Virus record (IMG/VR): IMGVR_UViG_3300017788_000058
Span: 1 to 42,740 of that record
DNA length: 42,740 nt
Direction: 5' to 3' (one strand)
Origin: a virus
Below, one piece after another: positions 21,501 through 42,740 of the stretch. Both the position numbers and the translations under genes were made by a program. Under the pieces are notes generated by a model, which was not told where the DNA came from, did not search any database, and saw only the letters and a program-made list of their open reading frames with translations. Position 1 is the stretch's first letter. The number at the start of each line of letters is the position of its first letter.

Positions 21501-24500
21501 AGCGAACGATATAAGCGGCCAGCCTTTATATCCTAATGACGATGTTATTACAATTAAAGAATTATTCAATCCTATTACAGGACAGTTGACAGAAACACGC
21601 TTCTATTACTGGGTAGTGAATAAAAATATAACTCCGAAGATTCCCGGAAGAAAAATTTCAGCTATCGATGTGAATATCTTAATATCTGAACCGTCGAGTG
21701 TTGGTCTAGTGTTTTATAGTATAATTGATTCTAAAACGATTCTTGCTTACAATTTTGAAAGATTATTTAGATCCGGAAATCTTTTGTTTAACATGGTCTA
21801 TTCTATCGATAATTCCTTATCTAATATTTCTCATAGAGAGTTTCAAATATTAGCAGAAGATTCGTTAGGCAGTCGACCCGACGAACAGTTAGAGAAAAAA
21901 TGGATTGATAGTCTGATCGGAATAGACGAGGTGGGTAATAGAATTCCGGATCCGTTATTATCAGAAAAACAAAAATATGGAGTTCAGTTTAGGCCGAGAC
22001 AAAGCATGTTTAAGAATAGAACACCGATTCTTAAAGATACTATTGAATATATCAACATGATATTAAAACAAGAAGCATTCTCGGACGTTGTAGATTTTAC
22101 ATTACTATCTTCTAAAGAAGATATACCAGTAGAAGAATTAAATTTATATGATGAAAGTGTTGATGGAGATATTGATCTAGATAATGTTGGAACAGTTAGA
22201 GTTAAACAGGCAATTTTAAAGGTTAACATAGTTGATGGTGCGATAGATACGATAGATATAGTAGATTCTGGTTTCGGATATAAGAAATCGCCACCGGTAG
22301 TTATTTCCGGAACAGGCCAGGGAGCCGAGGCGGTCGCCGAAATAGACAATCAAGGGAGAATAATTTCTGTTCTCGTATCAAACAAAGGTAAAAAGTATTC
22401 TTCGGCATTCGCTACCGCAAGACCTTTTTCTGTTCTGGTAAATTTTGATTCTACTCAAAATAATCTTTGGAGCATTTATTCTTGGGACGATGCAAGAAAG
22501 GTATTTTATAGAACTAGAACACAATCTTTCGATACATCAAAATTTTGGAAATATGTTGACTGGTGGAAGGAAGGATACTCTCCGTCTGATAGAATAGTTA
22601 AAGAATTAGATGGTTTTTATCAAGAACCCTCTGTCTCAATAGAAGTGGGTGATTTATTAAGATTATCATCATATGGTGATTCGGGATGGGCCGTCTTAGA
22701 AAAAATATCTGATCGACCTTCAGAATCAGAATCTAATTATGTTTTGGTAGGAAGGGGAAACGGTACAATAGAGTTGAGCGAAAGTCTCTATAATCGCAAT
22801 ATTTCTGGAGTAGGATTTGACACAATCACGTCTTTTGATACTGGCCTATATGATATCGAGAATACCAAAGAATTAAGAAATATTCTGAGAGCAGTACAGA
22901 AAGATATTTTTGTAGCAGATTATGAAATCGAATGGAATAAATTATTTTTTAAATCGATCAGATATGTTTTTGTCGAGCAAGAGTATGTAGACTGGGCATT
23001 TAAAACCAGTTTTGTAAAAGCGACACACAATGTTGGTAAACTACAGAAGAAATTAAATTACAAAAATGATAATATCGATTCCTATCTAGATTATCTAAAT
23101 GAGGTGAAGCCTTTTAGAACTACAGTTAGAAATTTCATAAGCGGATACGAACAGGACGAAGATTATAGATCTTCTGCTTCTGATTTTGATCTTCCGTCAG
23201 TCTATTCTAAAGTAGAAGGAAAAATAATCGAAGTTAATGAATCTTCGGGACTCGTTAATCAATATCCTTGGAAGTGGTATTTAGACAATACAGGATTCGG
23301 AATAACCTCCATTGAAATAGTAGATAATGGTTCAAACTATATAGTTCCACCTCAAGTTTTAATCATCGGAGATGGGGACGGGGCTGTCGCTAAAGCATAC
23401 ATTTCCAATGGAACGGTTTCTAAAATATTGGTAGTTAATCCAGGCTCGGGATATAGAACTGCACCTTTAATTTCTTTAGTGGGCGGTAATGGTTCGTCGG
23501 AGCGAATTGCTAGAGCTATCGCAATTTTAGGCGATTCTAAAATTAGAACTTTTGATCTTTCTATTAAATTTGATAGATTAAGTGAACAAGGCGAATACAG
23601 CGAATTTATTAAATCAGAAACATTTATAGCTACTGGGGCCAGTAGTGTATTTGAGCTAAGATACCCATCTACTCTAGATAAAACAAAAATTAAAGTTAGT
23701 TTAAATGATCAACTCATATTAAAAGATCAATATTCTTTATCTGTCTATAAAGCCTATAACAATACATATGAAGTTTTAAAAGGTAGACTTACTTTTACTG
23801 TAGTTCCTGCTTCCGGTGATGTAATCACTATTAATTATGAAATAAACGATGAGATTTTAGATAGCGTAAACAGAATTCAAAAATATTATCATCCGAGAAC
23901 CGGAATGAAATCGAGAGATCTTAATCAGCTAATGACTGGTATAGATTTTGGAGGTGTAAAAATTCAAGGAACGACCTTTGATGTTACGGGAGGTTGGGAT
24001 GCACTACCTTGGTTCACAGATACGTGGGATTCAGTGCAATCGGGTGCGGATCATTATGTTGTGGTAGACGGTAGCACTACTGCAGTAGTACTACCTTATG
24101 TTCCCCCTGTCGGACAACGGATAAACATTTATCTTAAAAGGGCCGGGGAAAGAAGGAATCGAGATATATTAAATCTTCAATTTGAAGATGAAATACCGGA
24201 ACCCCCTACGATAAGAATCGACGATCCTAATTACAGCGATCAATGGAATTCTAATTCGGTTATAAATCCTAATGCTCAGATGCCAACATTTATTGGCGAT
24301 GGATCTACAAGAATTGTAGAAATTGGAGAATACATTTCTTTGAATGCCGGCGATACGCTGATATTCAGACCCGAAGAAAGTGATGGTTCTGTAACAATTA
24401 CAGACAATAATATTTTAGATACATTGGTATCGGGAGGAACGTTATCTGCAGTCTCTGGCGCCTATTCGACAGCTAATGGAATAACTTCAGAAGAAATAGT

Positions 24501-27229: not shown

Positions 27230-29296
27230 ATGCCATACATCGTTAATTTTACTGATAAAGATAACAAGGCTCCTATAACGGTTTTTGATAATACATCGAA
27301 TACTGATACCTCTTTAATTTTGCCTGGAAGAAACGTTGCCGGTTATGGACAAATTATCGCTGAAAATTTTATAGGAATTTTAGAAAATTTTGCTTCGACT
27401 TCAGCCCCTATAAATCCAGTAGAGGGCCAATTGTGGTACGATACTGAAGACAATGTTTTAAAATTATACGATGGAATTTTATGGAAAGCGGCTTCTAATA
27501 TACAGAAAAGTCCTACAGAACCGGCAGTAGACGAATCGAACGTAGGAGAGTTATGGGTAGATACTACTAATCAGCAGTTGAGAATCTATACAGGAACTAG
27601 ATGGATATTAGTTGGTCCAGTAGAAAGCACGATAGACGGATTAAGATATGGTCCTGTGATAGAGACTGTCATCGATTCTGACAATATCAATAGACCAATT
27701 TTAATTTTTTATCTAGCCGATATTCCGATTTTAATTGTTAGCAAGGATACTTTTACTCCTAAAATCATCATTGACGGGTATGACATTATTAGAACTGGCA
27801 TTAATATTACTTCTAATTCTATCTCGGATGTTTTTCCGAAATACCACGGGGTATCTGTGGGCGCCGAAAACTTAGTTATTTCAAATGTGCAGATACCTGC
27901 CGGAAGATTTTTAAGAAGTGATACCATTAATACAGTTGAAAACTCTTTTAATATCAGAGGTTCTGGCGGATTAACATTAGGAGTTGATGGAACTTTTAAT
28001 TTATCAACGACTTCTACAGCCGCTAAAATTTATAATTCTGCCGAAGGGAGTAGCTTAGATCTACAAACCAATAGAGATGGGATACCTAGCACTATATTAA
28101 GAATATTAGATGATAATGTAGGAATAAACAAGGCAGTTCCTGAAGAGGCACTAGATGTTGATGGGAATATTAGAACCAGCGGATCGATAATTTTAACTAA
28201 TACTACTGAAAGTTCAAATTTAAATAATGGTAGTTTTAGAACTGCTGGCGGAGCAGCTATTTCTAAAAATCTTTTGATAGGATCCGATCTCGATGTTGCC
28301 GGGATCACCCAGACAAGAAACATACAACCAAAAACCACTGATATCCATGACTGCGGAACTGCTGCAAGGAGATGGAACACCGTTAGAGCAAAAAGTATTA
28401 TAGCCGATACTATAGAAGGGGTATTACAGGGAAACATCAGTGGAAATGCTAATACAGCAACAAATTTAAAAAATGTCACTACTTTTCAATTGGCCGGCGA
28501 CGTTGTTTCTCCAGCCATACAATTTGATGGACAAGTTGGTAGTTACACTAAAATTTTTAACACACAGTTAACAGCCAATATTATTGTAAGTAAACCTCAA
28601 CCGTTTCCGAATTTTTCTTCCTCTGAAGATGAAATTTTAGTTTACAGGCCCTCTCAAGGTCTTTTAAAGCAACAAAGAGATGTCTTCATATCAGATCTAG
28701 GAGTTCCTATAGGTACTATATTACCGTTCGCAGGAATCAATGTTCCCAGAGGTTATCTGTTATGCGATGGCTCGGAAATTGAAAAAGTAAAATATCCAGA
28801 CTTGTTTGATGTGATAGGTAATACCTATGGAGTTGCTACATTAGGCTTTGATAGTTTTAAATTGCCAGATCTGCGAGGACGATTTGCTCTAGGCAGAGAT
28901 AACATGGACAACGGATTTACGGTTCCTAATTTAACTGGCGGAATAGTAGATGCGGGCGGCGGAGATACTAACAGAGTAGATGACGTGAATGCAGACATAA
29001 TTGGAGGCTCCGCTGGCCAGTCGAGAGTAGTTCTTGATTTGTCTAATCTGCCTGATCACCAACATACTTTAAACGTAAACGGTATTCAGTACGCAGCAGT
29101 TAGAGTGGATACTTCGATTAATGTCCCAGGAAAAACCGGATTAGGACCAACAGCTCCGGGGCAAGCACAGTACTTAGAAGATTCTGGTTTGGTTAGAAAA
29201 CCCAGTATTGATTTTAATCTTAGTGCTCCTGTAGGTATAATGAATCCTTATTTGACAGTCAACTATATGATCAGGTCAGGACCTGAGAGATTTTAA
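27230..29296 (+). CDS. Fibre protein A with shared N-terminal module and C-terminal tail collar domain
   Basis: This 688-residue protein is the first of four fibre paralogues. The N-terminal ~130 residues carry PGRNVAGYGQIIAENFIGIL and two tandem G-x-x-W-x-D-x-x-x-x-x-L-x-x-Y-x-G-x-x-W hairpins (GQLWYDTEDNVLKLYDG, GELWVDTTNQQLRIYTGTRW), probably the virion attachment part. The middle is beta-rich shaft. From about residue 490 a phage tail collar domain is clear: PIGTILPFAGINVPRGYLLC, DGSEIEKVKYPDLFDVIG and LPDLRGRFALGRDNM, with LPDHQHTL near 607. Collar domains occur in T4 gp12-like short tail fibres, where the HxH can bind metal. It ends about 11 bases before fibre B. An adhesin or fibre role is well supported; the receptor is unknown. 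Confidence 0.82.
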   Translation: MPYIVNFTDKDNKAPITVFDNTSNTDTSLILPGRNVAGYGQIIAENFIGILENFASTSAPINPVEGQLWYDTEDNVLKLYDGILWKAASNIQKSPTEPAVDESNVGELWVDTTNQQLRIYTGTRWILVGPVESTIDGLRYGPVIETVIDSDNINRPILIFYLADIPILIVSKDTFTPKIIIDGYDIIRTGINITSNSISDVFPKYHGVSVGAENLVISNVQIPAGRFLRSDTINTVENSFNIRGSGGLTLGVDGTFNLSTTSTAAKIYNSAEGSSLDLQTNRDGIPSTILRILDDNVGINKAVPEEALDVDGNIRTSGSIILTNTTESSNLNNGSFRTAGGAAISKNLLIGSDLDVAGITQTRNIQPKTTDIHDCGTAARRWNTVRAKSIIADTIEGVLQGNISGNANTATNLKNVTTFQLAGDVVSPAIQFDGQVGSYTKIFNTQLTANIIVSKPQPFPNFSSSEDEILVYRPSQGLLKQQRDVFISDLGVPIGTILPFAGINVPRGYLLCDGSEIEKVKYPDLFDVIGNTYGVATLGFDSFKLPDLRGRFALGRDNMDNGFTVPNLTGGIVDAGGGDTNRVDDVNADIIGGSAGQSRVVLDLSNLPDHQHTLNVNGIQYAAVRVDTSINVPGKTGLGPTAPGQAQYLEDSGLVRKPSIDFNLSAPVGIMNPYLTVNYMIRSGPERF

Positions 29297-29307: not shown

Positions 29308-31197
29308 ATGGCATATCAAATTAACAAAACTGACGGAACGATTTTATCCACGGTGGCAGATGGACAAATAGATGAGAATTCTAGCGATTTAACTCTCATC
29401 GGCAGAAATTATAGCGGATTCGGCGAAATTTTAAATGAAAATTTTGTTAAACTTTTAGAACATTTTTCGTCGTCAGCATCTCCTCGAAATCCAGTAAGGG
29501 GGCAAATATGGTTCGATGCCGGAGAATCAAAATTAAAGGTTTATAACGGAGTTAGGTTCGTTCCGGTCAGTTCAGCCACTATTTCAAACTCTCAGCCAAC
29601 TAATCTAGGCATAGGAGATCTATGGTACAATGATGTTGCTAAACAACTATTTTTCTTTGACGGTACTTCTCCAGTGTTATTGGCTCCTGCCTACAGTGAA
29701 GGTCAGAGTCTCAGCGGACTAAAAGTCGAAAGTGTGCTAGATACACTTAATCAAACCCGTGTCATAACTTTGCTCTATAATAACGGAGTATTGCTGGGTA
29801 TCTTTGCGAAGGACCAATTTGATTTAAAAAATGCGATCTCCGGTTTTAGCGGTAGGATAGAACCGGGATTTAATGCAGGTTCACTTTCCGGAATTAAATT
29901 TAAAGTAACGGTTACAAACTCCGAAAAATTAGGAGGACAAGATGCGTTAACTTATGTGAGAAGAGACACGTCTAATACCATTGACGGTCAGCTTAGACTA
30001 ACCAGTGATCTAGGACTAGTAATTGGCAGTGGCGGACAGGGTAATTTTGTTATTAACGATGGAAATCTTCTTATAGCTAATGCTGCTACAGAAAAAAATA
30101 TAAGGCTAAGTGTACGACGAGGTATAGATCAAGAAGACGGTTTAATTATTTCGCCTTCGAATAGGACGGTTTCGATATATCCTGGATTTAGTGATAGCGA
30201 AGTTGAAATTGGTGGAAGTCTTACGATATCTGGTGATCTCACTGTTAACGGAACGACTACCACAGTCAACACAAGTAATTTAACAATCGAAGATAAAAAC
30301 ATAGAATTAGCTCTTCAGACAGGCATCACACCTACAGATGTAAACGCCGATGGTGGAGGAATTATTTTAAGAGGATCTTCTAATCATGTTCTTTTGTGGT
30401 CAAATACAGGATCTCCAGCTACACCGGAATTGCCGGCTCTGTATTCTCAGGCGTGGAACAGCAGCGAGCATATCAATTTAGCAACAAACAAATATTATGC
30501 AATTGATGGAATTCCTTTGTTAATCCAGACAAGCACAACACCAGGATTACAGACTTTCAAACTTACTGATAGGGTCACTGCCATTGATGGTGTTACAAAC
30601 TTTGGTAAACAAAATGTTTTAAACGTTGGTCCTGGATTAGTAGGTGATCCGCCTTATATTAGAATTCAAGATAATCGCATATCGACTTTAAGTGGAGTAG
30701 GAGTTCCTCTAAATTTAGATTTAGAACTATACCCATTGGGAGATATTGTATTACCAGGATCGGCCAAAATTACAAATTTGTCAGATCCGGTATCTACTCA
30801 GGATGCTTCAACTAAAGGATATGTTGATAATAAAGTAGAAAGTAGAAACATAGTTTTAAGTATTGATATATCTGACGGCAAATCTAATAGCTACATTGTT
30901 AACAATATTCTTAATAATATAGCTCCTCCGGCTGAATATAGATCAGGAACACAGGCTAGGATTCTATGCACGATTTTAAGTAATTCTAGCACTACATTTG
31001 ATATGAATGCAATCACAACTCTCTCTACGAATGTGTTCGTCACTCCAACGCCGGGGACTGCTAGCGCAGTTACAAACATAGCCTTTTCACCACCGTCGAT
31101 ACCAGGACAAGGAATAACAGCGATCAGAATAGTAAAAATATTTCAAGTAATATTAGGTGCCTGGTCATTTATATCAGATACACCATTACCAGCATAA
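29308..31197 (+). CDS. Fibre protein B, paralogue with shared N-terminal module
   Basis: A 629-residue paralogue. Its N-terminus repeats the family pattern: IGRNYSGFGEILNENFVKLL, PRNPVRGQIWFDAGESKLKV and a second GDLWYNDVAKQLFFFDG hairpin. The shaft contains SGDLTVNGTTTTVNTSNLTI and EDKNIELALQTG, a segment widespread in T4-like marine fibres. SDPVSTQDASTKGYVDNKV follows, a common element before a C-terminal tip. The C-terminal ~110 residues (from about residue 520) lack a recognised tip domain. The start follows fibre A by 11 bases with only a weak ribosome-binding match. Likely a tail-fibre or baseplate-fibre subunit; partner and receptor are unknown. Confidence 0.75.
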   Translation: MAYQINKTDGTILSTVADGQIDENSSDLTLIGRNYSGFGEILNENFVKLLEHFSSSASPRNPVRGQIWFDAGESKLKVYNGVRFVPVSSATISNSQPTNLGIGDLWYNDVAKQLFFFDGTSPVLLAPAYSEGQSLSGLKVESVLDTLNQTRVITLLYNNGVLLGIFAKDQFDLKNAISGFSGRIEPGFNAGSLSGIKFKVTVTNSEKLGGQDALTYVRRDTSNTIDGQLRLTSDLGLVIGSGGQGNFVINDGNLLIANAATEKNIRLSVRRGIDQEDGLIISPSNRTVSIYPGFSDSEVEIGGSLTISGDLTVNGTTTTVNTSNLTIEDKNIELALQTGITPTDVNADGGGIILRGSSNHVLLWSNTGSPATPELPALYSQAWNSSEHINLATNKYYAIDGIPLLIQTSTTPGLQTFKLTDRVTAIDGVTNFGKQNVLNVGPGLVGDPPYIRIQDNRISTLSGVGVPLNLDLELYPLGDIVLPGSAKITNLSDPVSTQDASTKGYVDNKVESRNIVLSIDISDGKSNSYIVNNILNNIAPPAEYRSGTQARILCTILSNSSTTFDMNAITTLSTNVFVTPTPGTASAVTNIAFSPPSIPGQGITAIRIVKIFQVILGAWSFISDTPLPA

Positions 31198-31219: not shown

Positions 31220-33502
31220 ATGCCTTATGTAATCAACAAGACTAATGGACAACCTCTACTGACACTAGATGATGGAGCATTAGATACTACAACTAGCTTA
31301 TCCTTAGTCGGAAGAAATTTTGTTGGCTACGGTGAATTACAGAATGAAAATTTTGTACATCTTTTAGAAAATTTTGCGGGAAATAATCCCCCATCTAGAC
31401 CGATATCGGGACAGGCTTGGTTTAATACTCTAAGTAATGTTCTTCATGTTTATGACGGAACGAAATGGATAGTTGTGGGTTCTGCTCCGTTGTCAGAAAC
31501 TGCTCCGGAAGATCCGTCTATCGGCGCATTTTGGTACAAAACTCCGATTGGTATTTTGTATATCTATGATGGAAACGAATGGATCTTGGTTGGTCCCGAC
31601 AAAATTCAAAATTTTGGACCGACCGGTGCTAAACCTCAAATTTTATTAGATATAGTCAATAATCCTCAGCCGGTCATACTTTTCACGATTGACGGAACAG
31701 TAATTTCTATAGCTTCTTCTAATTCATTTACTATAGGATTACAAAATGAGATACCTGGATTTTCTCAATTATTGCCCGGGATTAATTTATCTACTAGTGT
31801 TGTTGTTTCTGGTAATTTAACCGGAAAAGCAACTACCGCAGAACGACTCCATACTCCTATAAGAATCAACGGAATTAGTTTTAACGGAGAAACAGACATA
31901 ACTGTTAAATCTTCGACAACAAATAAATTAATCAGAGGCACTTTTCTTACCGGAAGCGATTTTGATGGATCAGAACAGATTTCTTGGGGAGTAGACGCAA
32001 CCCCAAATAACGTCATTGGAAAAATTGTAGCGAGAGATTCTTCGGGAAGTTTTTCAGCAGGAACGATAAACGCTTCTAACTTTGTCGGAAGTTTATCTGG
32101 TAATGTAAATGCGGAATCGGGAACAAGTAATTTTAATATAATTCAAGCTAACCAATTTATTGGAGCTAACCTTACTGGTAATTCTAGGACTGCTACGAGA
32201 TTACAAACTGCTAGAAATATCAACGGTACTCTGTTTGACGGAACTCAAGATATAACGATTACAGCAAATGCTTCGACGCTTACAGGAAATGTGTTAAATT
32301 CCACAGTTGTTTTTTCAAACTTAACCCAGGTAGGAACGTTAACGAATCTCAACGTTAACGACGATGGTATATCTATAGGCAATGGAGGCCAATTAAGAAT
32401 TACATCTTCCGGTTCTACTACGAATGTAAGAAATTCTGCTAGCAACGGAACCTTAGAATTAGAAATAAACGATCTAGCCAGCCCCTCTAACAGCGCAAAA
32501 CTTTCTTTTATAGCATCTTCTACTTCACTTTCTCAAGCAGGTGATAATCTATCGGCGATAATTCCATCAAATCAGTTTAACTTGGGACATCCAAATTATC
32601 AATTTAATAAAGTTTATGCTTCGACCGTTATAGCTAATCTCCAAGGAAATTCGAATACTTCAACGCTATCATCTGCGACTACTAATATTGCAGGCGGTAG
32701 TTCTGGATCGTTGCCGTATCAGTCTTCGACAGGAAGCACGGCATTTTTATCTCCAGGTGTTCCTGGACAGGTACTTAGAACTCAAGGATCTGGATCTCCT
32801 CCGACTTGGGGAAGTATAGGTTTTTCAGTTTTACAGAGAGGAAATTATTTAACAGGCGATAATTATGACGGGTTTAATAGTTCTATATGGTCTGTAGATG
32901 CAACTATCACTAATACCGCTAACAAAATTGTAGCAAGAGATTCTTCGGGAAATTTTTCTGCAGGAACTATAACAGCTTCGTTGAACGGAAATGCAGCTAC
33001 CGCTTCTAGATTGCAGACAGCAAGAACAATCAATGGAATCAGTTTTGATGGAACTGAAAATATTAATATACCCTTGACGACCGGAACTGATCCTACCAAA
33101 GTTAGCAAGACCGGCGATACAATGACCGGTCAGCTTACATTGTCATTGACACCTACCCAGCCCGGACATGCGACTAATAAATCATATGTAGATAGCCGAC
33201 TTCCTGTATATACTTTTGTTACGGGAAATACAGTATTCAGTACTTCTGGATTTACGAATATAGTTGGCTCGTGGAGCGATGGTGCAAACTTTTTTGATGT
33301 ATTTCCGCCTAGCGGAAAATTTATGGTAAATCTAACAGCATTTATTCCCAGCATCGCGGTATTATATTATGCTGGAACAGTTAATGGTGATGACCATACG
33401 AGATGCACTTGGGTGAGCCTAAGCGATAGGATTAGAGTTTATGTACAGAATACTGAACAACGCTCTACTCCTGCAGCCAATTATCTAGCAATTTGGAGTT
33501 AA
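31220..33502 (+). CDS. Fibre protein C, paralogue with repeated shaft elements and distinct tip
   Basis: This 760-residue paralogue is the longest of the four. The N-terminal module is present (VGRNFVGYGELQNENFVHLL, GQAWFNTLSNVLHVYDGTKW, GAFWYKTPIGILYIYDG). The shaft has three copies of a GN-x-x-TA-x-RL-x-T-x-x-x-INGI-x-F-x-G-x-x-x-I element at about residues 198-229, 320-349 and 590-618. It also has two copies of a ~50-residue unit built on LTG...W.VDA...KIVARDSSG.FSAGTI at about 237-283 and 537-587. A VSKTGDTMTGQLTLSL and HATNKSYVDSRL element leads into a C-terminal tip ending near TPAANYLAIW. Such shaft repeats are typical of trimeric T4 gp37-like fibres. The small gene right after it may assist its folding. 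Confidence 0.78.
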   Translation: MPYVINKTNGQPLLTLDDGALDTTTSLSLVGRNFVGYGELQNENFVHLLENFAGNNPPSRPISGQAWFNTLSNVLHVYDGTKWIVVGSAPLSETAPEDPSIGAFWYKTPIGILYIYDGNEWILVGPDKIQNFGPTGAKPQILLDIVNNPQPVILFTIDGTVISIASSNSFTIGLQNEIPGFSQLLPGINLSTSVVVSGNLTGKATTAERLHTPIRINGISFNGETDITVKSSTTNKLIRGTFLTGSDFDGSEQISWGVDATPNNVIGKIVARDSSGSFSAGTINASNFVGSLSGNVNAESGTSNFNIIQANQFIGANLTGNSRTATRLQTARNINGTLFDGTQDITITANASTLTGNVLNSTVVFSNLTQVGTLTNLNVNDDGISIGNGGQLRITSSGSTTNVRNSASNGTLELEINDLASPSNSAKLSFIASSTSLSQAGDNLSAIIPSNQFNLGHPNYQFNKVYASTVIANLQGNSNTSTLSSATTNIAGGSSGSLPYQSSTGSTAFLSPGVPGQVLRTQGSGSPPTWGSIGFSVLQRGNYLTGDNYDGFNSSIWSVDATITNTANKIVARDSSGNFSAGTITASLNGNAATASRLQTARTINGISFDGTENINIPLTTGTDPTKVSKTGDTMTGQLTLSLTPTQPGHATNKSYVDSRLPVYTFVTGNTVFSTSGFTNIVGSWSDGANFFDVFPPSGKFMVNLTAFIPSIAVLYYAGTVNGDDHTRCTWVSLSDRIRVYVQNTEQRSTPAANYLAIWS
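32023..32980 (+). repeat. Internal duplication in fibre protein C
   Basis: Near-identical DNA around 32023-32066 and 32929-32972 encodes KIVARDSSG-S/N-FSAGTI. It is part of a longer imperfect duplication (about residues 237-283 and 537-587). Silent and conservative differences show the copies are older than the repeats near the right edge. Confidence 0.7.
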
Positions 33503-33889: not shown

Positions 33890-35668
33890 ATGGCATATCA
33901 ATTAGACAGATTTAATGGGACATTTTTAGTTAATGTTGATGATGGTTCTATAGAAACTAATTCAACTGATTTAAGGTTCGTAGGTAAAAATTATGCGGGA
34001 TACGGAGAGGTTCAAAACGAAAATTTCTTGCATCTTCTAGAAAATTTTGCTAATACGACTCCGCCACCCAAAGTAATCAGCGGGCAGATCTGGTACGATA
34101 ATGCTAATAAAAAATTAAAATTTTACGATGGAACTAGATTTAGAGTAGCAGGCGGCGCCGAAATAGGAACTACGGCTCCATCTGGATTGACCATAGGAGA
34201 GTTTTGGTGGGATACTTCCGCCAAGCAATTATACACATGGACCGGAACAGATTTTGTACTTATAGGTCCAGAAGCATCTCCCGATCTCGGATCGGCTTCG
34301 GCAGTATCTCAGGTAGTGAAAGATATCACCGGTGGAAATCATACTATATTGAAACTTATTGCTGGCGGTAAAACTATAGGAATTATCAACACCGATGAAC
34401 AGTTTACCCTTAACAGCACTTTAAATCCAATCGAAGATTTTTCTTTAATACGTAAAGGATTTAATCTCGTTCGAACCAATGCTAGCGGTGTTAGTTCTGA
34501 CGGTTTCGCATATTGGGGATCGGCCTCTAATTCTTTGAGATTAGGAGGAATCGAAGCTAATCAATTTGTTCAAAAAGGTGATGTAGCATTTGATCAAGAA
34601 ATATCTTTTAAAGATCCCGGTTTCCAGTTAGGTGATGGAAACGATCTTCGCGTGAGGGTTGAGAACAACGACGAAGTTGTTTTTGAAAATAGATTGGGTA
34701 ATGATATTACTTTTAGGATTTCTTTATCACCAATAGATAAAAGAAACGTAGGAGTTTTTAATTCCAACGGAATCGATCCCGGAGACAATTTAGTTTACGA
34801 TTTAGGAAGAACAACACTAAAATGGAAAACTATATATGCCGGAACTGTTGATGCTAACGTCATAGGAAATTTAACAGGTAATACTGTGGGAGCCCATACT
34901 GGTAATTTATTAGCAGCTGACTCTACAGTAATGGTAAATGCAACCACTAAGCAGATAGGTTATCCATTGGCAAATATTGTAGGTGAGCTTACAGGAAACG
35001 TTCAAGGAAACGTAGTAGGAACAGCCAGTAGTGCAAGTAGCATAAATAACATTCCACCGTCAATAGCTATTCCATCACCATTAACCGCTACGATTCCGAT
35101 AAGAGATGCTACCGGTAATATTACAGCTAATCAATTTATCGGCACAACAGATAGATCAGATAGATTAAGAATAAATGATGCTGCAGTCGATTCGGATCCC
35201 AATTATAGATCGGCGAAAACATCAGCAACAGCGAATACTGTGGCCGCCAGAGATAGTTCTGGAAATATTTTAGCGGTATTATTTGACGGAACAGCAACTG
35301 CCGCTAGATATGCTGATTTAGCAGAAAAATATCTTCCTGATCAAGAATATGAAGCAGGGACTGTGGTCTCGATAGGCGGTACGGCTGAAATTCGTGCGTC
35401 GATGATAGGCGACAGAGCTATTGGGGTAATTAGTACCAACCCAGCGGTTATGATGAACAAAGATTTAGAAGGTGGTATATATGTGGCACTTAAAGGTCGG
35501 GTTCCGACAAAGGTGATCGGAACAGTGAGGAAAGGCGATCGATTGATAGCGACAAATAATGGGTGTGCTATGCAGGCCGAATATCACCACCACGTAGATG
35601 TTTTTGCAATAGCTCTAGAATCCAGCAGCGATCCCCAAGTGAAATTTATTGAAGCATTGGTATTGTAA
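33890..35668 (+). CDS. Fibre protein D with shared N-terminal module and possible intramolecular chaperone end
   Basis: A 592-residue fourth paralogue with the common N-terminal module (VGKNYAGYGEVQNENFLHLL, GQIWYDNANKKLKFYDGTRF, GEFWWDTSAKQLYTWTG). The C-terminal ~120 residues (from about 474) read YADLAEKYLPDQEYEAGTVV, then GDRAIGVISTNPAVMMN and GGIYVALKGRVPTKVIG, KGDRLIA. This pattern is widespread at the ends of phage and bacterial fibre-like proteins. It loosely resembles Peptidase_G2-type domains that trim themselves after folding, but I cannot assign catalytic residues. The stop overlaps the next ATG by one base. The fibre role is likely; self-cleavage is speculative. Confidence 0.72.
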   Translation: MAYQLDRFNGTFLVNVDDGSIETNSTDLRFVGKNYAGYGEVQNENFLHLLENFANTTPPPKVISGQIWYDNANKKLKFYDGTRFRVAGGAEIGTTAPSGLTIGEFWWDTSAKQLYTWTGTDFVLIGPEASPDLGSASAVSQVVKDITGGNHTILKLIAGGKTIGIINTDEQFTLNSTLNPIEDFSLIRKGFNLVRTNASGVSSDGFAYWGSASNSLRLGGIEANQFVQKGDVAFDQEISFKDPGFQLGDGNDLRVRVENNDEVVFENRLGNDITFRISLSPIDKRNVGVFNSNGIDPGDNLVYDLGRTTLKWKTIYAGTVDANVIGNLTGNTVGAHTGNLLAADSTVMVNATTKQIGYPLANIVGELTGNVQGNVVGTASSASSINNIPPSIAIPSPLTATIPIRDATGNITANQFIGTTDRSDRLRINDAAVDSDPNYRSAKTSATANTVAARDSSGNILAVLFDGTATAARYADLAEKYLPDQEYEAGTVVSIGGTAEIRASMIGDRAIGVISTNPAVMMNKDLEGGIYVALKGRVPTKVIGTVRKGDRLIATNNGCAMQAEYHHHVDVFAIALESSSDPQVKFIEALVL

Positions 35669-36558
35669 TGACAGATATAAATGCCAGCGATTATAATCTT
35701 ATTAGAAATAAGATTTTACAAATCTTAGGTACCGGGTCAGGCACATCGGGATATGGTCAAAGTATACAAAGTTCTGATGTAGCATCGGGCAATTTGATCA
35801 CAGCTGACCAATGGAATTTACTCAGGACGGATATTGAAAACATCAGATTGCATCAAACCGGAGCTGTTCCTACCCTTCCAACGATTGCGACAGGGCAACC
35901 TGTCGTACTATCTGCAGCCGCTCCTAATTTCGGGTTTGATACAGTGTTGGCTGGTGCTTTTACTGATAGATTTAATATAGGAACAGGAAGATCTTTGGTA
36001 TCTACCGGTATAAGCCAGAGCAGGACAGGTTCTTGGTCAGTTCAATCTCGGTGTGTGGCAACAGTCACTTTTGGGAGCGCAGATCTGGCTAGATTCTTTT
36101 TCAATAGCGGTGGCAAAATTAGAATAACCAGTTCTCGATCGGGAGGTTCGTCTTCTGCACAAAATAATGCTTGGTCTAATCTGCTAACAGCAGCAGGAGC
36201 ACGCGAATTTGGCGGTAATATTTCTTTGCCCTCGCATTTTTATAAATTAACTAATAGTTATAATGACAATGTATTCTACACAGTAAATTTAAGCACACCC
36301 TATTCTGCTAATTTTTATGAATTGGCTGCAAAATGCAATGTAGCTAACAATAATACAGGTACTGCAACCACGATAGATTTTAGAATAACTTGGAGAGATA
36401 ATTATGTCGATCCAGGATCGCCTCCTCCTGGAGATTTAGTCGATGGAACATTAGATGTCCAAATACAAGAACTGAAAGCTACTGGATCTTTGATTCCGTC
36501 AGGCAGTTTTTCTATAACCAGTCCTGCGTTCTCTATATCTTCTATTACCGCCGCATAA
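35668..36558 (+). CDS. Structural protein, first of a tandem paralogous pair
   Basis: This 296-residue protein is of a type found repeatedly in T4-like marine phages, of unknown exact role and probably part of the tail or fibre tips. Landmarks are NASDYNLIRNKILQILGTGS, SGYGQSIQSSDV, ADQWNLLRTDIENIRLHQTG, LARFFFNSGGKIRITSSRSG, QNNAWSNLL and PPPGDLVDGTLDVQIQ. All except the start recur in the next gene. The shape suggests a helical N-terminal attachment part (about 1-70) followed by a beta-sandwich. It starts on the last base of the fibre D stop codon (TAATG). Confidence 0.6.
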   Translation: MTDINASDYNLIRNKILQILGTGSGTSGYGQSIQSSDVASGNLITADQWNLLRTDIENIRLHQTGAVPTLPTIATGQPVVLSAAAPNFGFDTVLAGAFTDRFNIGTGRSLVSTGISQSRTGSWSVQSRCVATVTFGSADLARFFFNSGGKIRITSSRSGGSSSAQNNAWSNLLTAAGAREFGGNISLPSHFYKLTNSYNDNVFYTVNLSTPYSANFYELAAKCNVANNNTGTATTIDFRITWRDNYVDPGSPPPGDLVDGTLDVQIQELKATGSLIPSGSFSITSPAFSISSITAA

Positions 36559-36594: not shown

Positions 36595-37584
36595 ATGCCA
36601 GTAAACGATAAAATTAGAGTGCTAGAATATAATAATATTCGAGCTAAAGTGATCGGAGTCTTAGGAGCGGGAAGCGGAAATTTTGGTTATGGTCAGGTAT
36701 TAAGCAGTTCTGATGTGTCAATAAGCAGCAAAGTTACAGTAAATGAATATGCTTTGCTGAGAAATGACATCATTAATGCATACAGACATATCTTTGGTTC
36801 GAATCCCGTTTTAGCTACTCCTGCCGAAGGAAATACTATTAGATATAGTACAACATTTACACCTTCAACAGCAAATAGTCCTATTACACAGTATGATACC
36901 TGGGCAGATCAATTAATCGCGAATAGGTTTACAGTAGCAGGAAGCCAGGCTATCACGGCCTCTAAAGGATCTCAAAGTAGGAATTTTACTTCAGTGTGGA
37001 CTACGAGACTGGAGTGTACGATTACTGTTAATTTCACCACAGCCAATCAGGCCAGATTCTTTTTTAATAGTGGTGGCGAAATTAGATTCGGTTCGTCGAG
37101 GTCTGGAGGAACAGCTAATCCATTTCCGGGACATATACAAAACAATGCTTGGACGACTCTATTGGCCAGTGCTAACGCTAGATTTGGTGGAAATTTTCCA
37201 TCGATAGGTACATCACCTGCCGACGGCCAGAATTATTACAGGTTAAATAATTCTGCATTTGGTAGCATATCTCCGTTTTATACCGTATCAGCATCTAGTC
37301 CTTATTCGCTAAATGTATGGAGGGTCAAAGCCAGAGCCACCGATACCGCAAACAATTCAACAGGCACATGTAAACAGATGGAGTTTTTGGTCGAATGGAT
37401 CGACGGATACACAGATCCTACGGCTGGACTACCGGGGAATCCGCCTCCGGGTGATCAAGTAGACGGATTAATAACGGTATCGGTGTCAACGCAGGAGGCA
37501 TTCGGTGCGTTGGTTCCTGTAAGCGCCGGCAATTTTACAGTAGAATCACCTGTGGTTAATTATTCTTCGATTTCTGGTTCTTGA
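36595..37584 (+). CDS. Structural protein, second of a tandem paralogous pair
   Basis: A 329-residue paralogue of the preceding gene. Shared segments include EYNNIRAKVIGVLGAGSG, FGYGQVLSSSDV, ARFFFNSGGEIRFGSSRSGG, IQNNAWTTLL and PPPGDQVDGLITVSV. It differs by inserts such as ANPFPGHIQ and GTSPADGQNYYRL. The start at 36595 is supported because its N-terminus aligns with the start of its paralogue, although no Shine-Dalgarno is present and a late promoter lies only six bases upstream. The two may be alternative or co-assembling virion subunits; the function is unknown. Confidence 0.6.
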   Translation: MPVNDKIRVLEYNNIRAKVIGVLGAGSGNFGYGQVLSSSDVSISSKVTVNEYALLRNDIINAYRHIFGSNPVLATPAEGNTIRYSTTFTPSTANSPITQYDTWADQLIANRFTVAGSQAITASKGSQSRNFTSVWTTRLECTITVNFTTANQARFFFNSGGEIRFGSSRSGGTANPFPGHIQNNAWTTLLASANARFGGNFPSIGTSPADGQNYYRLNNSAFGSISPFYTVSASSPYSLNVWRVKARATDTANNSTGTCKQMEFLVEWIDGYTDPTAGLPGNPPPGDQVDGLITVSVSTQEAFGALVPVSAGNFTVESPVVNYSSISGS

Positions 37585-37639: not shown

Positions 37640-38002
37640 ATGGGTACGTTTATGGATGCAAGATTGCAACAAGCTCTAGATTTCGCTAAGTATAAAGAAA
37701 CATTCGAAATACAAAAAAATCAAGCCAGAGAAAAGCTAGATGCCAAATTGACTTTTGGTTATAGTGGTGGTATCTTTAAAATTGATCGAGGATTGATAAG
37801 TTTCGTACAATTTTTATTGGATAACGACAGAAAAACCGATGTTCCTTTATTAGATTATAACCATAATCCTATACTAGTCAAAGACCTCGAAACATTCAAG
37901 ATAGAAATATTAGATAGATATTTTGCTGGTGTTCTTGAATACTACAACGAGAATGAAAGAATAAAAAAATCTAGATCAGTAGAAAAGCTTCTAGACCTAT
38001 GA
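37640..38002 (+). CDS. Conserved small T4-like phage protein, unknown function
   Basis: A 120-residue protein of a kind seen in many marine T4-like phages. It contains ALDFAKYKETFEIQKNQARE, LTFGYSGGIFKIDRGLISF and a C-terminal KSRSVEKLL motif. It is mostly helical and charged, with no signal peptide or membrane segment. An alternative start at 37652 (Met5) cannot be excluded; neither has a clear ribosome-binding site. Its stop overlaps the next ATG as ATGA, so it is the first gene of the coupled cassette. The function is not known to me; an assembly or accessory role would be a guess. Confidence 0.6.
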   Translation: MGTFMDARLQQALDFAKYKETFEIQKNQAREKLDAKLTFGYSGGIFKIDRGLISFVQFLLDNDRKTDVPLLDYNHNPILVKDLETFKIEILDRYFAGVLEYYNENERIKKSRSVEKLLDL

Positions 38003-38859
38003 TCAAAAAAGGAATTTTAATTTTTGCTCATAATAGTCAATATCTTGACTACGCTAGATTAGCCGGCATATCCGGAAAATTAGCTGTTGAAAAGTTAGGG
38101 ATGCCTGCTACTTTAATTACAGACGATGATACCGTGCGATGGGCGAAATCAAATAACGAATATCGTTTTCTTTCTCAGATTTTTGAAAATATAATCATAT
38201 CGGATCGACCAAACATGGCCAATCAACGAAATCTCAAAGATGGTGATATATCAGAACGGATTCCTTTTATTAATAGCAACAGGAATTTATCTTGGGATCT
38301 TTCCCCATACGATAGAACATTGGTTATTGACAGTGATTTTTTAGTGTTATCGAATAATTTAAACAAGTACTGGGATTTAGACGACGACTTTTTAATTGCC
38401 GAATCTGCGTCAGATATCGACCCCAATGATAGATTAGGATACCATGATAGATATATTTCTGATACAGGAATAAAACTTAATTGGGCTACTACTTTTTTCT
38501 TTACGAAAAACGAAAAAACTAAAGTTTTTTTTGATCTATGTAAAGTTATATCATCTAATTATCAATATTATGCAGATCTCTTTAGGTTCGATCCTAGGCA
38601 ATATAGGAATGATATAGCTTTTAGTATTGCTGTCCATATATTAAATGGATTTTCAACAAAGGAAATAAATTTTTTGCCCCCAGTTAAAACATTTTTAGAT
38701 ACTGATTTATTAATCAATGTTGGAAATAAAAAATTAACATTTTTAATCAAAGACAAAAGCGGGGTATCGTATACCGCATGCAGTGTTTTTGATCGAGATA
38801 TCCATGTCATGAATAAGCAGAATTTATTGAGATTCGAGAAAGAGTTAAAGTTATTATGA
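37999..38859 (+). CDS. Glycosyltransferase-like protein 1 (GT-A fold, DSD)
   Basis: A 286-residue cytoplasmic enzyme-like protein. The N-terminal GILIFAHNSQYLDYARLA strand-helix and a central YDRTLVIDSDFLVLSNN place a D-x-D metal/nucleotide-sugar motif at D111-S-D113, as in GT-A glycosyltransferases related to family 8. Near the C-terminus DIHVMNK (H269) could provide the metal-binding histidine. Donor and acceptor cannot be told. It overlaps the genes on both sides by four bases (ATGA), so it is made with them. Modification of virion proteins or of host glycans is inferred from its place next to the fibre genes. Confidence 0.65.
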   Translation: MIKKGILIFAHNSQYLDYARLAGISGKLAVEKLGMPATLITDDDTVRWAKSNNEYRFLSQIFENIIISDRPNMANQRNLKDGDISERIPFINSNRNLSWDLSPYDRTLVIDSDFLVLSNNLNKYWDLDDDFLIAESASDIDPNDRLGYHDRYISDTGIKLNWATTFFFTKNEKTKVFFDLCKVISSNYQYYADLFRFDPRQYRNDIAFSIAVHILNGFSTKEINFLPPVKTFLDTDLLINVGNKKLTFLIKDKSGVSYTACSVFDRDIHVMNKQNLLRFEKELKLL

Positions 38860-39698
38860 ATTTTGGATATCTTTTAATTGTGTCTAAAAACGATAAAATT
38901 GATTATTTAAAATTAGCCTATGCTTTGGCAATGAGCATTAAAAACACACAGAAGCAAGGATATGATAAAGTTGCTTTAGTAATAGACGATAAAAAATCTT
39001 TAGATCGATTTCGATCTGTGTGGGTATTTGATGAGATAATCGAATGGGATCAAGAAACGTTTTGGGATGGACGAGCCTGGATGGACCAATTAACTCCCTG
39101 GGATCATACTGTTTGTCTCGACGTTGACATGTTATTTTTAAGAGATTATAGTCATTGGATTGATTATTTTTTAGAAGAAGATATAGACCTTTATGTTCCT
39201 AATAAAGTTTTCAATTATAGAAATGATATAGTTTCTTCAGATTATTACAGGGAATGTTTTGTTAAAAATCAATTGCCCAACTTATATTCTTTGTATACGT
39301 TTTTTAAAAAAGATTCAAATAAAAACAAAGAATTTTTTGAGCTTTCGAGATTAATAACAAAGAATCAAAATTATTTTTCTAATAATTTCTTAACTAAAAG
39401 AAAACCGAAGATAATAGGCACAGATGAGGTCTTCGCACTTGCCTCTAAAATTTTAGGTATCTCCGACGAAATTTCTTACGATATGGAATTTCCTAAAATT
39501 GTTCATATGAAGCCGATGATACAGGACTGGCCTTGGCCGGCAGATGATTGGACCAATCATCTAGGTTTTTATTTGAACAGAATTGGGCAACTAAAAATAG
39601 CTAACTATAAACACGATTCTATAGTCCATTATGTAAAGAAAGATATTATTACTGATGAAATTGTTAATATATTGGAAGAAATTTTATGGAAGAAATAG
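38856..39698 (+). CDS. Glycosyltransferase-like protein 2 (GT-A fold, DVD)
   Basis: A 280-residue protein resembling the preceding one in plan. GYLLIVSKNDKIDYLKLAYA forms the nucleotide-binding N-terminus. WDHTVCLDVDMLFLRDYSHW carries D89-V-D91, and KIVHMKPMIQDWPWP (H217) resembles the C-terminal H-x-x-x metal ligand of family 8-like enzymes. No membrane segment is visible. It starts within the stop of the previous gene and overlaps the next by 13 bases, indicating strict translational coupling. Sugar donor and target are unknown. It may act in sequence with the other two enzymes of the cassette. Confidence 0.68.
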   Translation: MNFGYLLIVSKNDKIDYLKLAYALAMSIKNTQKQGYDKVALVIDDKKSLDRFRSVWVFDEIIEWDQETFWDGRAWMDQLTPWDHTVCLDVDMLFLRDYSHWIDYFLEEDIDLYVPNKVFNYRNDIVSSDYYRECFVKNQLPNLYSLYTFFKKDSNKNKEFFELSRLITKNQNYFSNNFLTKRKPKIIGTDEVFALASKILGISDEISYDMEFPKIVHMKPMIQDWPWPADDWTNHLGFYLNRIGQLKIANYKHDSIVHYVKKDIITDEIVNILEEILWKK

Positions 39699-40291
39699 AT
39701 TTTTTTAATTTTCCTGAGATTGAAAATGTAAAATATTGTGCGGTATACGATCCTGACACATTAATGATTATCAGTGTGGGACCCTCTATTGCTTTTGTGA
39801 ATACCAAATATAAGATTTCTATAGATGAAAATCTCGCAGAAGAAATTATATCAGGCAAAATTAGAATACATCATTGTTTCGCCGACCTTCATAATAAATC
39901 TATAGATATTATAGAAAAACATCAGATAAGAAAAATTGATGATATACTCCATAGAATAATAGAAAAGGAGTGGTCGACGATTGTTGATCCCGAAATTTTT
40001 TTATTATGCGAAAAGAAAAAACATCAAATCAAGATCCAGATGACTACCGAATATGGAGGAACCAAAAAATCATCGATGCCAGTAAAAAGAAAATGTGCAT
40101 GGAGCGGAGATACGGTTATGGATTTTTATATTACCGAATATAATGATCCTAATATATTAATAGATACGTTTTCAATTACGATTGATGAATTGATTTCAAA
40201 AACTAAAACTATCGGTGTTAACAGTTTACCTGAAAAATTTAGCATTTATACTAGGCGTATTTTTAAAAATTATATGGTACATATCAAATGA
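39686..40291 (+). CDS. Unknown protein inside the glycosyltransferase cassette
   Basis: A 201-residue protein that I do not recognise. Visible parts are KYCAVYDPDTLMIISVGPSI, an IRIHHCFADLHNKS segment, RKIDDILHRIIEKEW and a basic stretch SSMPVKRKCAW. A YDPDT...VGPS start is seen in small phage proteins near glycosyltransferases, but no function is known to me. No signal peptide, transmembrane helix or catalytic motif is clear. It overlaps glycosyltransferase 2 by 13 bases and glycosyltransferase 3 by four, so a partner or acceptor role in the same process is plausible but unproven. Confidence 0.5.
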   Translation: MEEIDFFNFPEIENVKYCAVYDPDTLMIISVGPSIAFVNTKYKISIDENLAEEIISGKIRIHHCFADLHNKSIDIIEKHQIRKIDDILHRIIEKEWSTIVDPEIFLLCEKKKHQIKIQMTTEYGGTKKSSMPVKRKCAWSGDTVMDFYITEYNDPNILIDTFSITIDELISKTKTIGVNSLPEKFSIYTRRIFKNYMVHIK

Positions 40292-41187
40292 AAGTTATCG
40301 AATTTGACATTATTTTTTTAAGTTATGATGAATCCAATTCTGATCTACACTACGCAGATTTGTGCTCCAAAGTTCCTTGGGCTAAAAGAATTCATGGAGT
40401 AAAAGGCAGCGATGCGGCCCACAAGGCTGCTGCAGAACAGAGTGAAACTGATTGGTTTATCACCGTCGACGCTGACAATATAGTAGATCCTAAATTTTTT
40501 AACATAGATTTAGATATGAGCGATCCTAAAATCCGTGTTTACGGGTGGTGCGGTCGAAATAGAATCAATGGTTTACGCTATGGAAATGGCGGATTAAAAA
40601 TATGGAACAAAGAATTTGTAAAAAACATGAGAACACACGAGGCCAGCGAATCTGATAGAGCTCGTGTTGATTTCTGTTGGGAAGATGGTTATAGAAATTT
40701 TCCTTTGACATTTAGTGAAAGTATAATTACCGGAAGTCCTTTCCAAGCATGGCGGGCAGGATTCCGAGAAGGTGTAAAAATGACATTACTTGACGGAGTA
40801 AAAGTCCCTCCGCAAGAAATACAACAACATATATGGTGGCATAATATACATAGACTGCGTATGTGGTCAACTGTCGGCATGCACGAAGAAAACGGAAAAT
40901 ACGCTGTACTAGGCGCCAGGATGGGAACCTATATGACCAATTGCACAGATTGGGATTATGTACAGGTCCGAGACTTTGAAGTACTGAGAGAAATCTATGA
41001 AACAACAGTTAATCATACTTTTGTAGAAGAAGATGCACAAGATTACGGTACTAAAATAAGACACGAGTTAGGACTAGATTGGCCATGGCTCGATAAGCAA
41101 CAGAGCAAATACACTTTAGATTTATATAACGAAACCATGAATCTTAATGATACCTATTTCAAAATGCCGGTACCTACAAATGTATGA
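40288..41187 (+). CDS. Glycosyltransferase-like protein 3 (GT2-like, DAD)
   Basis: A 299-residue protein of a type common in marine T4-like phages and some large viruses. It has DIIFLSYDESNSDLHY at the start, AKRIHGVKGSDAAHKAAAEQ, then DWFITVDADNIVDPKFF with D61-A-D63 as the D-x-D motif, and RINGLRYGNGGLKIWNKEF. A long C-terminal part carries PFQAWRAGFREGVKM and HIWWHNIHRLRMW, which look like acceptor-side helices. It starts in the stop of the previous gene (ATGA) and its end overlaps the repeat-array gene by eight bases. The donor is unknown. The downstream repeat protein appears to derive from this fold. Confidence 0.72.
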   Translation: MKVIEFDIIFLSYDESNSDLHYADLCSKVPWAKRIHGVKGSDAAHKAAAEQSETDWFITVDADNIVDPKFFNIDLDMSDPKIRVYGWCGRNRINGLRYGNGGLKIWNKEFVKNMRTHEASESDRARVDFCWEDGYRNFPLTFSESIITGSPFQAWRAGFREGVKMTLLDGVKVPPQEIQQHIWWHNIHRLRMWSTVGMHEENGKYAVLGARMGTYMTNCTDWDYVQVRDFEVLREIYETTVNHTFVEEDAQDYGTKIRHELGLDWPWLDKQQSKYTLDLYNETMNLNDTYFKMPVPTNV

Positions 41188-42740
41188 TATATTTTTTGTT
41201 TCTAAAAATTGCATAGATGACGACACATGGAAACGATTCCATGAAAAGTATCCTTTGTCTGTTAAGTTAGAAAATGTTAAATCTATTGATGAAATAAAAC
41301 AAAAAACATTTACTAAGATGTTTTGGATAGTATGGGATGATTTAATATTAGACGATGATTTTGATTTGAAAAAATATAGATCTACAAAGTGGGATGATAT
41401 GTACGTGCATATTTTTAAAAACGGTGAATCTTATGATGGCATCTGTTTAATTCCTAAGCAGTTAGAAATAACTAAGAAAGAGTTTGATCACAGATTTTTC
41501 ACAGAAAAGAAAGAAATAGACATAAAAGCCAGCGAACCTCTTCCTTTCGAAGTACATAATATCAATACCTACGAAGCATATCTTAATGTATTAAATGAAT
41601 GTAAAACAAATATGTTTTGGGTAGTTTGGTCAGATATTGAATTAATTAAAGAATTAACTTATCATGTTCCTTATTACGATCAGCACATAATTCATGTGTT
41701 TAAGAATAATGAATTTTATGACGGTGTGGTTTTATTTCCTAAAAATGGAAAAGTTTCTAAAAAAGAGTTTGATCACAGATTTTTCACAGAAAAGAAAGAA
41801 GTAGATATAAAAATTTCTAGACCTAAACAGTACGATAAGTTTTTCATAAAGACATACGACGAATACTTAGATGCTCTCGAGTCATCTACGACTGAAATGT
41901 TTTGGATCATCTGGCCGGAAGTAGAGATCATAGATGATTCGGTCTTTGATTTATATTTTGATCATCATAGTGTTTATGATAGATCCGAAAATCATCTATT
42001 TAAAAATTTATGCAATTTAGAAAGCAGTTATTATAATGGCGTAGTTTTGTTTTCAAAAAACAAACCTATTTCAAAAAAAGAATTTGATCGAAGATACCTA
42101 ATAGATAAAAAAGAACATGATCGAGTTGTGTCTGTTTCTAGATATAAACGTTATAATATACGAACTTATGACGATTACGAATCTATTTTAAAGAGTGAAA
42201 CACAGCCTATGTTCTGGTGTATATGGCCGGAAGTAGAAATAACTGACGAGTCTGTATTCGATCTTTACTTTGATCAACGTAACGGAAAGTATGATTATGA
42301 TAGGTCAATGAATCATATGTTTTTAAATTCCTGCAACGGAGAAAGCTCATATTTTTCTGGTGTTGTTTTATTTTCAAAGAACAAACCTATATCAAAAAAA
42401 GAATTTGATCGAAGATACCTAATAGATAAAAAAGAACATGATAAAAACGTTTCTCGGTTTAGGTACAGAAGATATGTTATAGATGATTACGATCAGTACG
42501 TTGACATAGTAGAAAATGAAACACAACCTTTATTCTGGGTATTGTGGCCTGAAATAGAAATAACAGATAGCAGTATTTTTGATCTATACTTCGATCCTAG
42601 AGATGGCAAATATGATTATGATCGTAATGAGAATCATGTTTTTAAACATTTATTTAGAGGAGAAGAGACGTTCTTTAACGGTGCGGCTCTTTTGTCAACC
42701 AACAAAAAAATAGGTAAAAGAGAATTTGATCATAGATTTC
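41180..42740 (+). CDS. Tandem-repeat protein of degenerate glycosyltransferase-like modules, partial (runs off right edge)
   Basis: A reading frame of 520 codons, still open at the right edge. It starts at an ATG overlapping the end of glycosyltransferase 3 by eight bases. It consists of about five modules of 95-107 residues. Each holds an aromatic core (MFWIVWDD, MFWVVWSD, MFWIIWPE, MFWCIWPE, LFWVLWPE at 41318, 41612, 41897, 42209, 42530), then a His-Phe/Val region, a YDG/YNG-V-hydrophobic segment and KKEFDHRF or KKEFDRRY. The first module begins MYDIFFVSKNC and aligns along its length with the start of glycosyltransferase 3. Where that enzyme has D-x-D, the repeats have W-D-D, W-S-D or W-P-E, so they are probably not catalytic. 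Glycan or protein binding is a guess. Confidence 0.65.
   Translation, partial: MYDIFFVSKNCIDDDTWKRFHEKYPLSVKLENVKSIDEIKQKTFTKMFWIVWDDLILDDDFDLKKYRSTKWDDMYVHIFKNGESYDGICLIPKQLEITKKEFDHRFFTEKKEIDIKASEPLPFEVHNINTYEAYLNVLNECKTNMFWVVWSDIELIKELTYHVPYYDQHIIHVFKNNEFYDGVVLFPKNGKVSKKEFDHRFFTEKKEVDIKISRPKQYDKFFIKTYDEYLDALESSTTEMFWIIWPEVEIIDDSVFDLYFDHHSVYDRSENHLFKNLCNLESSYYNGVVLFSKNKPISKKEFDRRYLIDKKEHDRVVSVSRYKRYNIRTYDDYESILKSETQPMFWCIWPEVEITDESVFDLYFDQRNGKYDYDRSMNHMFLNSCNGESSYFSGVVLFSKNKPISKKEFDRRYLIDKKEHDKNVSRFRYRRYVIDDYDQYVDIVENETQPLFWVLWPEIEITDSSIFDLYFDPRDGKYDYDRNENHVFKHLFRGEETFFNGAALLSTNKKIGKREFDHRF
41477..41800 (+). repeat. Perfect 39-base direct repeat in the module array (modules 1 and 2)
   Basis: The copies are 41477-41515 and 41762-41800, encoding KEFDHRFFTEKKE in both. 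They are separated by one module length and identical base for base, while flanking parts of the modules differ widely. Confidence 0.85.
42071..42442 (+). repeat. Perfect 51-base direct repeat in the module array (modules 3 and 4)
   Basis: The copies are 42071-42121 and 42392-42442, encoding SKKEFDRRYLIDKKEHD in both. The bases just before them (AACAAACCTAT, then one mismatch) also match. This points to recent duplication or gene conversion between neighbouring modules. Confidence 0.85.

Follow-up and report, generated by a model that had tools for sequence, protein, structure and literature searches.

The last gene of an environmental virus record breaks off at the contig end after a series of repeats that resemble part of a glycosyltransferase (GT). 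What are these repeats, what protein do they belong to, and what might they do? The window, that is, the whole stretch of DNA analysed here, is a linear virus record of 42,740 bases. Its last ORF (41180..42740, plus strand, as are all features given below) runs for 520–531 codons with no stop, and its 3′ end is missing. The likely start is 41180, where the protein reads MYDIFF, because the resulting 8-nt overlap with the stop of the upstream enzyme gene (40288-41187) is conserved in two related loci, L003 and L187; the other candidate start is 41147. The open frame 41180-42739 comprises five modules with lengths of 119, 95, 105 and 107 residues and, for the last, 94 or more, in agreement with the five modules of about 100 residues (here ~95–120) reported in the initial annotation. 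That annotation also read W-D-D, W-S-D or W-P-E at the position of the D-x-D motif of GT enzymes, and the same triplets are recovered here. Module 1 (41180..41536, residues 1-119) carries WDD and is of the "first" type, belonging to the single clade (98 SH-aLRT) formed by all first modules in our tree. Module 2 (41537..41821, residues 120-214), recognised by its match to the module models and by the tree, carries WSD. Modules 3 (41822..42136, residues 215-319), 4 (42137..42457, residues 320-426) and 5 (42458..42739, residues 427-520, cut by the contig end) all carry WPE, and module 4 is 73% identical to module 3. At the DNA level the modules are 62–78% identical to one another, which makes them old repeats; with no pair above 78%, a recent duplication inside the window is ruled out. 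The contig ends before any catalytic domain of this gene.

What lies beyond the contig end can be judged from relatives. Scans of IMG/VR with the window ORF, the C-terminal domain, first modules and two divergent arrays yielded more than 200 loci; in IMG/VR as a whole, the GT domain has at least 574 relatives and the first module at least 533. Complete relatives share one layout: a first module of ~115 residues, 0–15 further modules of ~95–107 residues, and a C-terminal GT domain of ~225 residues, which begins YDIVFISYNEPNAD and carries an invariant DGD. Modules were counted by profile models over 164 distinct complete ORFs with a GT domain. No module is present in 42 of these ORFs, and 1–16 modules are present in 122 (one in 26 ORFs, two in 23, three in 16, four in 23, five in 20, six in 2, seven in 1, eight in 1, nine in 3, 13 in 2, 14 in 3 and 16 in 2), counts that describe loci fetched by similarity and not population frequencies. 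Since module 5 of the window groups, albeit weakly (tree support 81), with the last modules of relatives, a GT domain probably follows it directly beyond the contig end.

This layout bears on the suggestion, made in the initial annotation, that the repeat is perhaps a sugar- or protein-binding scaffold. In 122 of the 123 complete module-bearing ORFs, the modules precede one full GT domain with an intact D-G-D, and an array standing alone without an enzyme is thereby ruled out. The sole exception, a four-module ORF at L068, is probably half of a split gene, as two overlapping ORFs (L068:6362-8669) encode four modules and then one module plus a GT domain. A frameshift, an error or gene fission are candidate causes of the split. 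Homologues of the GT domain are also found in cells, and none of the 69 counted, mainly from actinobacteria and proteobacteria, carries modules, which rules out a host-derived array. Several variant architectures were seen along the way. The N-termini encoded at L006, L041 and L066 are longer by ~130 residues (..YVWLVDPN.. / ..YVWLIKKG..) that precede the first module recognised and look like one more, very diverged module. At L098 and L102, whose contigs are binned as Neisseriaceae and Bdellovibrionales, a single module-free ORF joins two GT domains of the family. On a plasmid of Rhodobacter sp. CZR27, a type VI secretion cluster includes, close to a gene for an M14 peptidase, a module-free cellular homologue of the GT domain (L254; 711846-712772).

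From which protein did the modules arise? In profile comparisons, the first modules match residues 1–107 of the C-terminal GT domain (99.2%, 1.8e-19) and the later modules match residues 41–104 (98.1%, 1.4e-13), against a maximum of 2.6% in controls made of 15 column shuffles and one reversal. The upstream enzyme matches the first modules at 73% over the enzyme's first 43 residues, and the later modules at 3%. Since the modules match the C-terminal domain better, direct descent from the upstream enzyme is ruled out, and descent from the C-terminal GT domain of the relatives is well supported by these profiles. The likeness to the upstream enzyme that was noted initially is real, as are the GT origin and the tandem duplication proposed from it; the source is the C-terminal domain, however, and it is via this closest relative that the link to the upstream enzyme runs. 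One of the anchors then used, KIWNKEF against ITKKEF, is ~8 residues out of register, GGLKIW being the segment that pairs with DGICLI. In a tree of modules and GT domains (97 rows, 95 columns), all modules fall on one side of a branch with support 100 and all GT domains on the other, while many inner forks are open and the finer branching is untrustworthy.

By sequence, the upstream enzyme itself (40288..41187, 299 aa) is paralogous to the GT domain and stands further from the modules than that domain does. It is an intact GT-like protein with the motif VDADN, and its family matches the C-terminal GT domain at 2.5e-47 in profile comparison. Among the GT genes tested, 62 of 71 with modules and 29 of 42 without have this paralogue as their immediate upstream neighbour. 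Searches of Pfam, PHROGs and NCBIfam with the array protein and its relatives returned nothing significant. The upstream enzyme scores 14.7 bits against Pfam Glycos_transf_2 (PF00535), below the cut-off of 23.3, and an L003 protein scores 18.8 bits against Glyco_tranf_2_3, below the cut-off of 27. Among the phage records of INPHARED, tblastn with the array, the GT domain and the upstream enzyme gave no match at 1e-5, and just one weak match, under an RNA-ligase gene, at E values up to 1. Together, the C-terminal GT domain and the upstream enzyme form a divergent family that is common in IMG/VR and falls below all Pfam and NCBIfam cut-offs.

Structure prediction sharpens the picture of what has been duplicated. 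We used AlphaFold2 to model a 354-aa protein from L013, which consists of one module and the GT domain (mean pLDDT 91.5, pTM 0.67), and a two-module slice of the window array, modules 3 and 4, from an alignment without GT rows (pLDDT 95.0, pTM 0.82). Module 1 of the L013 protein has the element order E-H-E-H-E-E-E-E-H-E over residues 4–120. In the model, the GT domain repeats this order up to the strand at 247–258, with one additional short helix, and then continues with five further C-terminal helices that are missing from the modules. Later modules are predicted to lack one helix and one strand near their start. On these models, the module would fold as a compact, GT-A-like core that lacks the helices of the C-terminus, and would not be a mere N-terminal half. 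The "half-domain" of the initial annotation is correct in that the module is truncated, but the module appears to keep the GT-A core, strands and helices alike, and to miss the C-terminal helices alone, later modules being short of one more alpha-beta step.

Foldseek searches with the module-plus-GT model against the PDB returned GT-A enzymes (K4CP, LH3, R699, WrtF and SunS; E from 3.3e-5), the top match being the two-domain K4CP. These matches, together with the pLDDT of the model, indicate a GT-A Rossmann-like fold for the C-terminal GT domain of the relatives. The module pair alone reaches a best E of 0.13 against the PDB; 46 of its best 50 PDB matches are GT-A or sugar-nucleotidyltransferase-like, all with E of 0.13 or more and counted without a base-rate control. 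Against BFVD, the pair matches two uncharacterised phage proteins, A0A6J5LK21 and A0A6J5L5L5 (804 and 1076 aa; 8e-7 and 1.4e-5), followed by viral glycosyltransferases. A profile search of the PDB with the module pair brought up only TFAM (E 0.005), which we rejected as spurious, this being an unrelated, all-helical DNA-binding protein. Overall, we are close to certain that the array protein consists of GT-derived cores followed, in relatives, by a GT domain.

Can the modules still work as enzymes? Both Asp residues of D-x-D are invariant in 80 of 80 aligned GT domains, and none of the 238 modules with a readable motif keeps the motif, so that the catalytic degeneracy noticed in the window extends to every module read. 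(The automatic reading of the triplet is a few residues off in some modules; in the aligned set this neither creates nor hides a D-x-D.) Trp stands in place of the first Asp in 91% of first modules, and W, P, S or Y does so in later modules; the second Asp is kept in 86% of first modules. Three further GT motifs, EPNAD, GIHQAH and NPIN.LEYGYGG..K, are missing from the modules, and the structural residues F52-W53, H78, G95 and L98 (numbering of the L013 GT domain) are retained. The lost residues and the missing helical part suggest that the modules are inactive, and we consider it very probable that they are non-catalytic accessories.

The opposite reading would be that the modules are active, singly or in pairs, each adding a sugar; the protein would then polymerise at several sites, as the chondroitin polymerase K4CP does with its two domains. 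That K4CP is the best Foldseek match of module plus GT speaks for this, and K4CP has tandem GT-A domains in one chain, as is predicted for the phage protein. Both GT-A domains of K4CP are catalytic. Unlike in K4CP, all domains of the phage protein but the last are truncated and without catalytic motif; with D-x-D found in no module and the helical C-terminal part missing, a multi-site polymerase is barely conceivable. The predominance of Trp in first modules invites another reading, in which the reshaped donor pockets make the arm multivalent and lectin-like, binding the sugar product or a host glycan and so keeping the enzyme on its polymer. Stacking against sugars would be a natural use for an aromatic side chain at the former donor site. 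In later modules, however, the residue at this position varies, the other pocket motifs are lost, and carbohydrate-binding families gave no match. We regard such a lectin-like arm as rather improbable.

It is also possible to ask whether the arrays serve any purpose. Copy number is unstable and close homologues lack modules, as might be expected of a decaying or selectively neutral expansion. Against this, dN/dS is ~0.13 for the modules (0.06–0.22) and 0.10 for the GT domain, as measured over 32 usable gene pairs that are not independent of one another; these ratios indicate that the modules are under purifying selection. In addition, frames are kept open up to about 1850 codons and the first-module clade is fixed. 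Decay or neutrality is thus highly unlikely.

The instability itself has a regular form. Close relatives differ by exactly one module in three pairs (L243/L247, L218/L237 and L200/L203, at 88–98% GT identity), and a fourth pair differs by an exact, in-frame tandem duplication of 321 nt (L242 relative to L249), with a 6 kb downstream flank that is 99.98% identical. One caveat to the fourth pair is that an exact repeat of this kind may also result from misassembly of one of the two contigs; the other three pairs are unaffected. Near-identical modules accompany diverged GT domains in some pairs, and the reverse holds in others (L204/L206, L204/L232), as expected from recombination within the gene. 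From the one-module differences, our computations point to unequal recombination as the means by which the arrays change length. The inner modules are also ordered by type. Those of L005, lying between its first module and its last, read A-A-B-C, A-A-B-C, A-B-C, A-B-C, and in L288 two types largely alternate, as judged by eye. Such order implies that the modules are not interchangeable beads.

These features weigh differently on a further reading, in which the arm is a molecular ruler or spacer: a rigid rod with no specific binding, the number of modules setting the distance between catalytic domain and anchor and hence the length or position of a glycan. Module count changes by whole units, and the confidence with which two modules are modelled as one unit suggests that they sit at a set distance from each other. 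The literature discusses coiled coils that act as rulers for the chain length of O-antigen (PMC5082667). Such rulers, for example WbdD, offer no more than a possible analogy, in that rod length could set glycan length: WbdD-type rulers are coiled coils, and the phage array is predicted to consist of tandem GT-A cores. A pure spacer, moreover, need not keep a fixed first-module clade or the ordered types of L005, and a candidate anchor was not found. We therefore consider a pure ruler unlikely.

Our preferred reading, held with moderate confidence as a whole, is that the gene encodes a phage glycosyltransferase with an N-terminal arm of pseudo-glycosyltransferase modules that docks or spaces a repetitive acceptor. 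The C-terminal GT-A domain, which would lie just past the window end, would transfer the sugar, and the arm of dead modules would hold or space the acceptor before the active site. Each module might contribute a small surface for docking, or a constant rise, and a larger number of modules would then extend the reach or add to the binding. Docking in particular, as opposed to spacing or sugar binding, is a tentative choice on our part. The arm would appear to be dispensable for catalysis in general, because the family includes 42 complete GT genes with no modules. A bolder extension is that the arm is programmable, the number and type order of its modules setting where and how far the active site works on a repetitive virion fibre or a growing glycan, and that phages retune it by gain or loss of single modules. 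We offer this extension as speculation with a small chance of being right.

The nearest precedent for an arm of this kind comes from LH3 and R699, each of which has an accessory GT domain. Human LH3/PLOD3 has a non-catalytic, GT-A-like "accessory" (AC) domain beside its catalytic one, proposed to aid substrate recognition (PMC6082870), and in mimivirus R699 a likewise non-catalytic accessory GT-A-like domain forms a salt bridge with a residue linked to the active site (PMC11838735). Likewise, the phage proteins combine putatively non-catalytic GT-A-like domains, inactive to judge from their lost residues, with a catalytic GT-A domain in the same chain (122 complete ORFs). In LH3 and R699 there is one AC copy, which is C-terminal and not in tandem; in the phages there are 1–16 copies, which are N-terminal and seem to derive from the enzyme's own catalytic domain. 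Profile searches of the PDB gave no sequence match to the LH3 AC domain. The C-terminal domain and the upstream paralogue, with their D-x-D and, by model, GT-A fold, are otherwise like GT-A / Glycos_transf_2-like enzymes of phages and bacteria. Searches of the literature for tandem degenerate or pseudo-glycosyltransferase arrays, which did not extend to subscription papers, found nothing on point, and across the family libraries, the PDB and the searchable literature such an array is described nowhere. A single accessory GT domain is thus already known; what appears to be new is the long, ordered, length-variable array built from the enzyme's own core. Here an enzyme seems to have turned dead copies of itself into a repeat protein, now carried by hundreds of environmental phage contigs and representing a new repeat scaffold of ~100 residues per unit. 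The series of 0, 1, 2 and up to 16 modules on the same catalytic domain offers a natural system for asking what pseudo-enzyme modules do.

What might the acceptor be? The array is located after the tail-fibre genes, as the last in a run of candidate glycosyltransferase genes. This run includes a candidate with DSD or DAD in its orthologues (37999..38859) and another with an invariant DVD in its orthologues (38856..39698), both identified by alignment and without a PDB or family match. An ORF of the same operon (39686..40291), with counterparts at L003:8507-9124 and L187:7489-8112 and no family match, separates these from the VDADN paralogue. Judging from gene order alone, the acceptor would most likely be a part of the virion, for instance the tail fibres, whose genes lie just upstream, and less likely a glycan of the host surface. 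The window phage has T4-like baseplate genes, its wedge protein is ~36% identical to those of the jumbo phages Atu_ph07, PA5oct and SCTP-2, and related contigs reach 280 kb. Elsewhere, at L281, the array is flanked on one side by a tail-sheath gene, which follows it, and on the other by an S74-chaperoned fibre gene and an Anp1-like glycosyltransferase candidate. The L005 array is preceded by genes for a UDP-glucose/GDP-mannose dehydrogenase, a DegT-type aminotransferase and a B12/radical-SAM protein, and the L003 array is directly followed by five consecutive radical-SAM genes (L003:11976-18367), one with SPASM. Such settings fit glycosylation of the virion or of a surface glycan, with DNA glycosylation as another possible role of the enzyme. 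The arrays also suggest that large aquatic phages invest heavily in glycosylation, be it of their own virions or of the host surface. A different lineage of aquatic jumbo phages is reported to have core glycosyltransferases (PMC12619734).

Finally, several neighbouring genes deserve mention in their own right. Five radical-SAM genes are an unusual number for a phage operon; they may modify peptides or sugars, and similar-looking genes are present in L187. Within the window, four tail-fibre-like genes (27230-29296, 29308-31197, 31220-33502 and 33890-35668) have a common N-terminal region of ~110 residues (phrog_15511/14394) and differing remainders, and probably provide several fibres on one attachment domain. 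Just after them lie two adjacent genes (35668-36558 and 36595-37584), whose products, apparently paralogous and 296 and 329 aa long, match no PHROG. Further upstream, 12568-26565 encodes a structural protein of 4,665 aa with FG-GAP repeats, baseplate- and connector-like segments and a possible chitin-binding module of the CBM_5_12 type.
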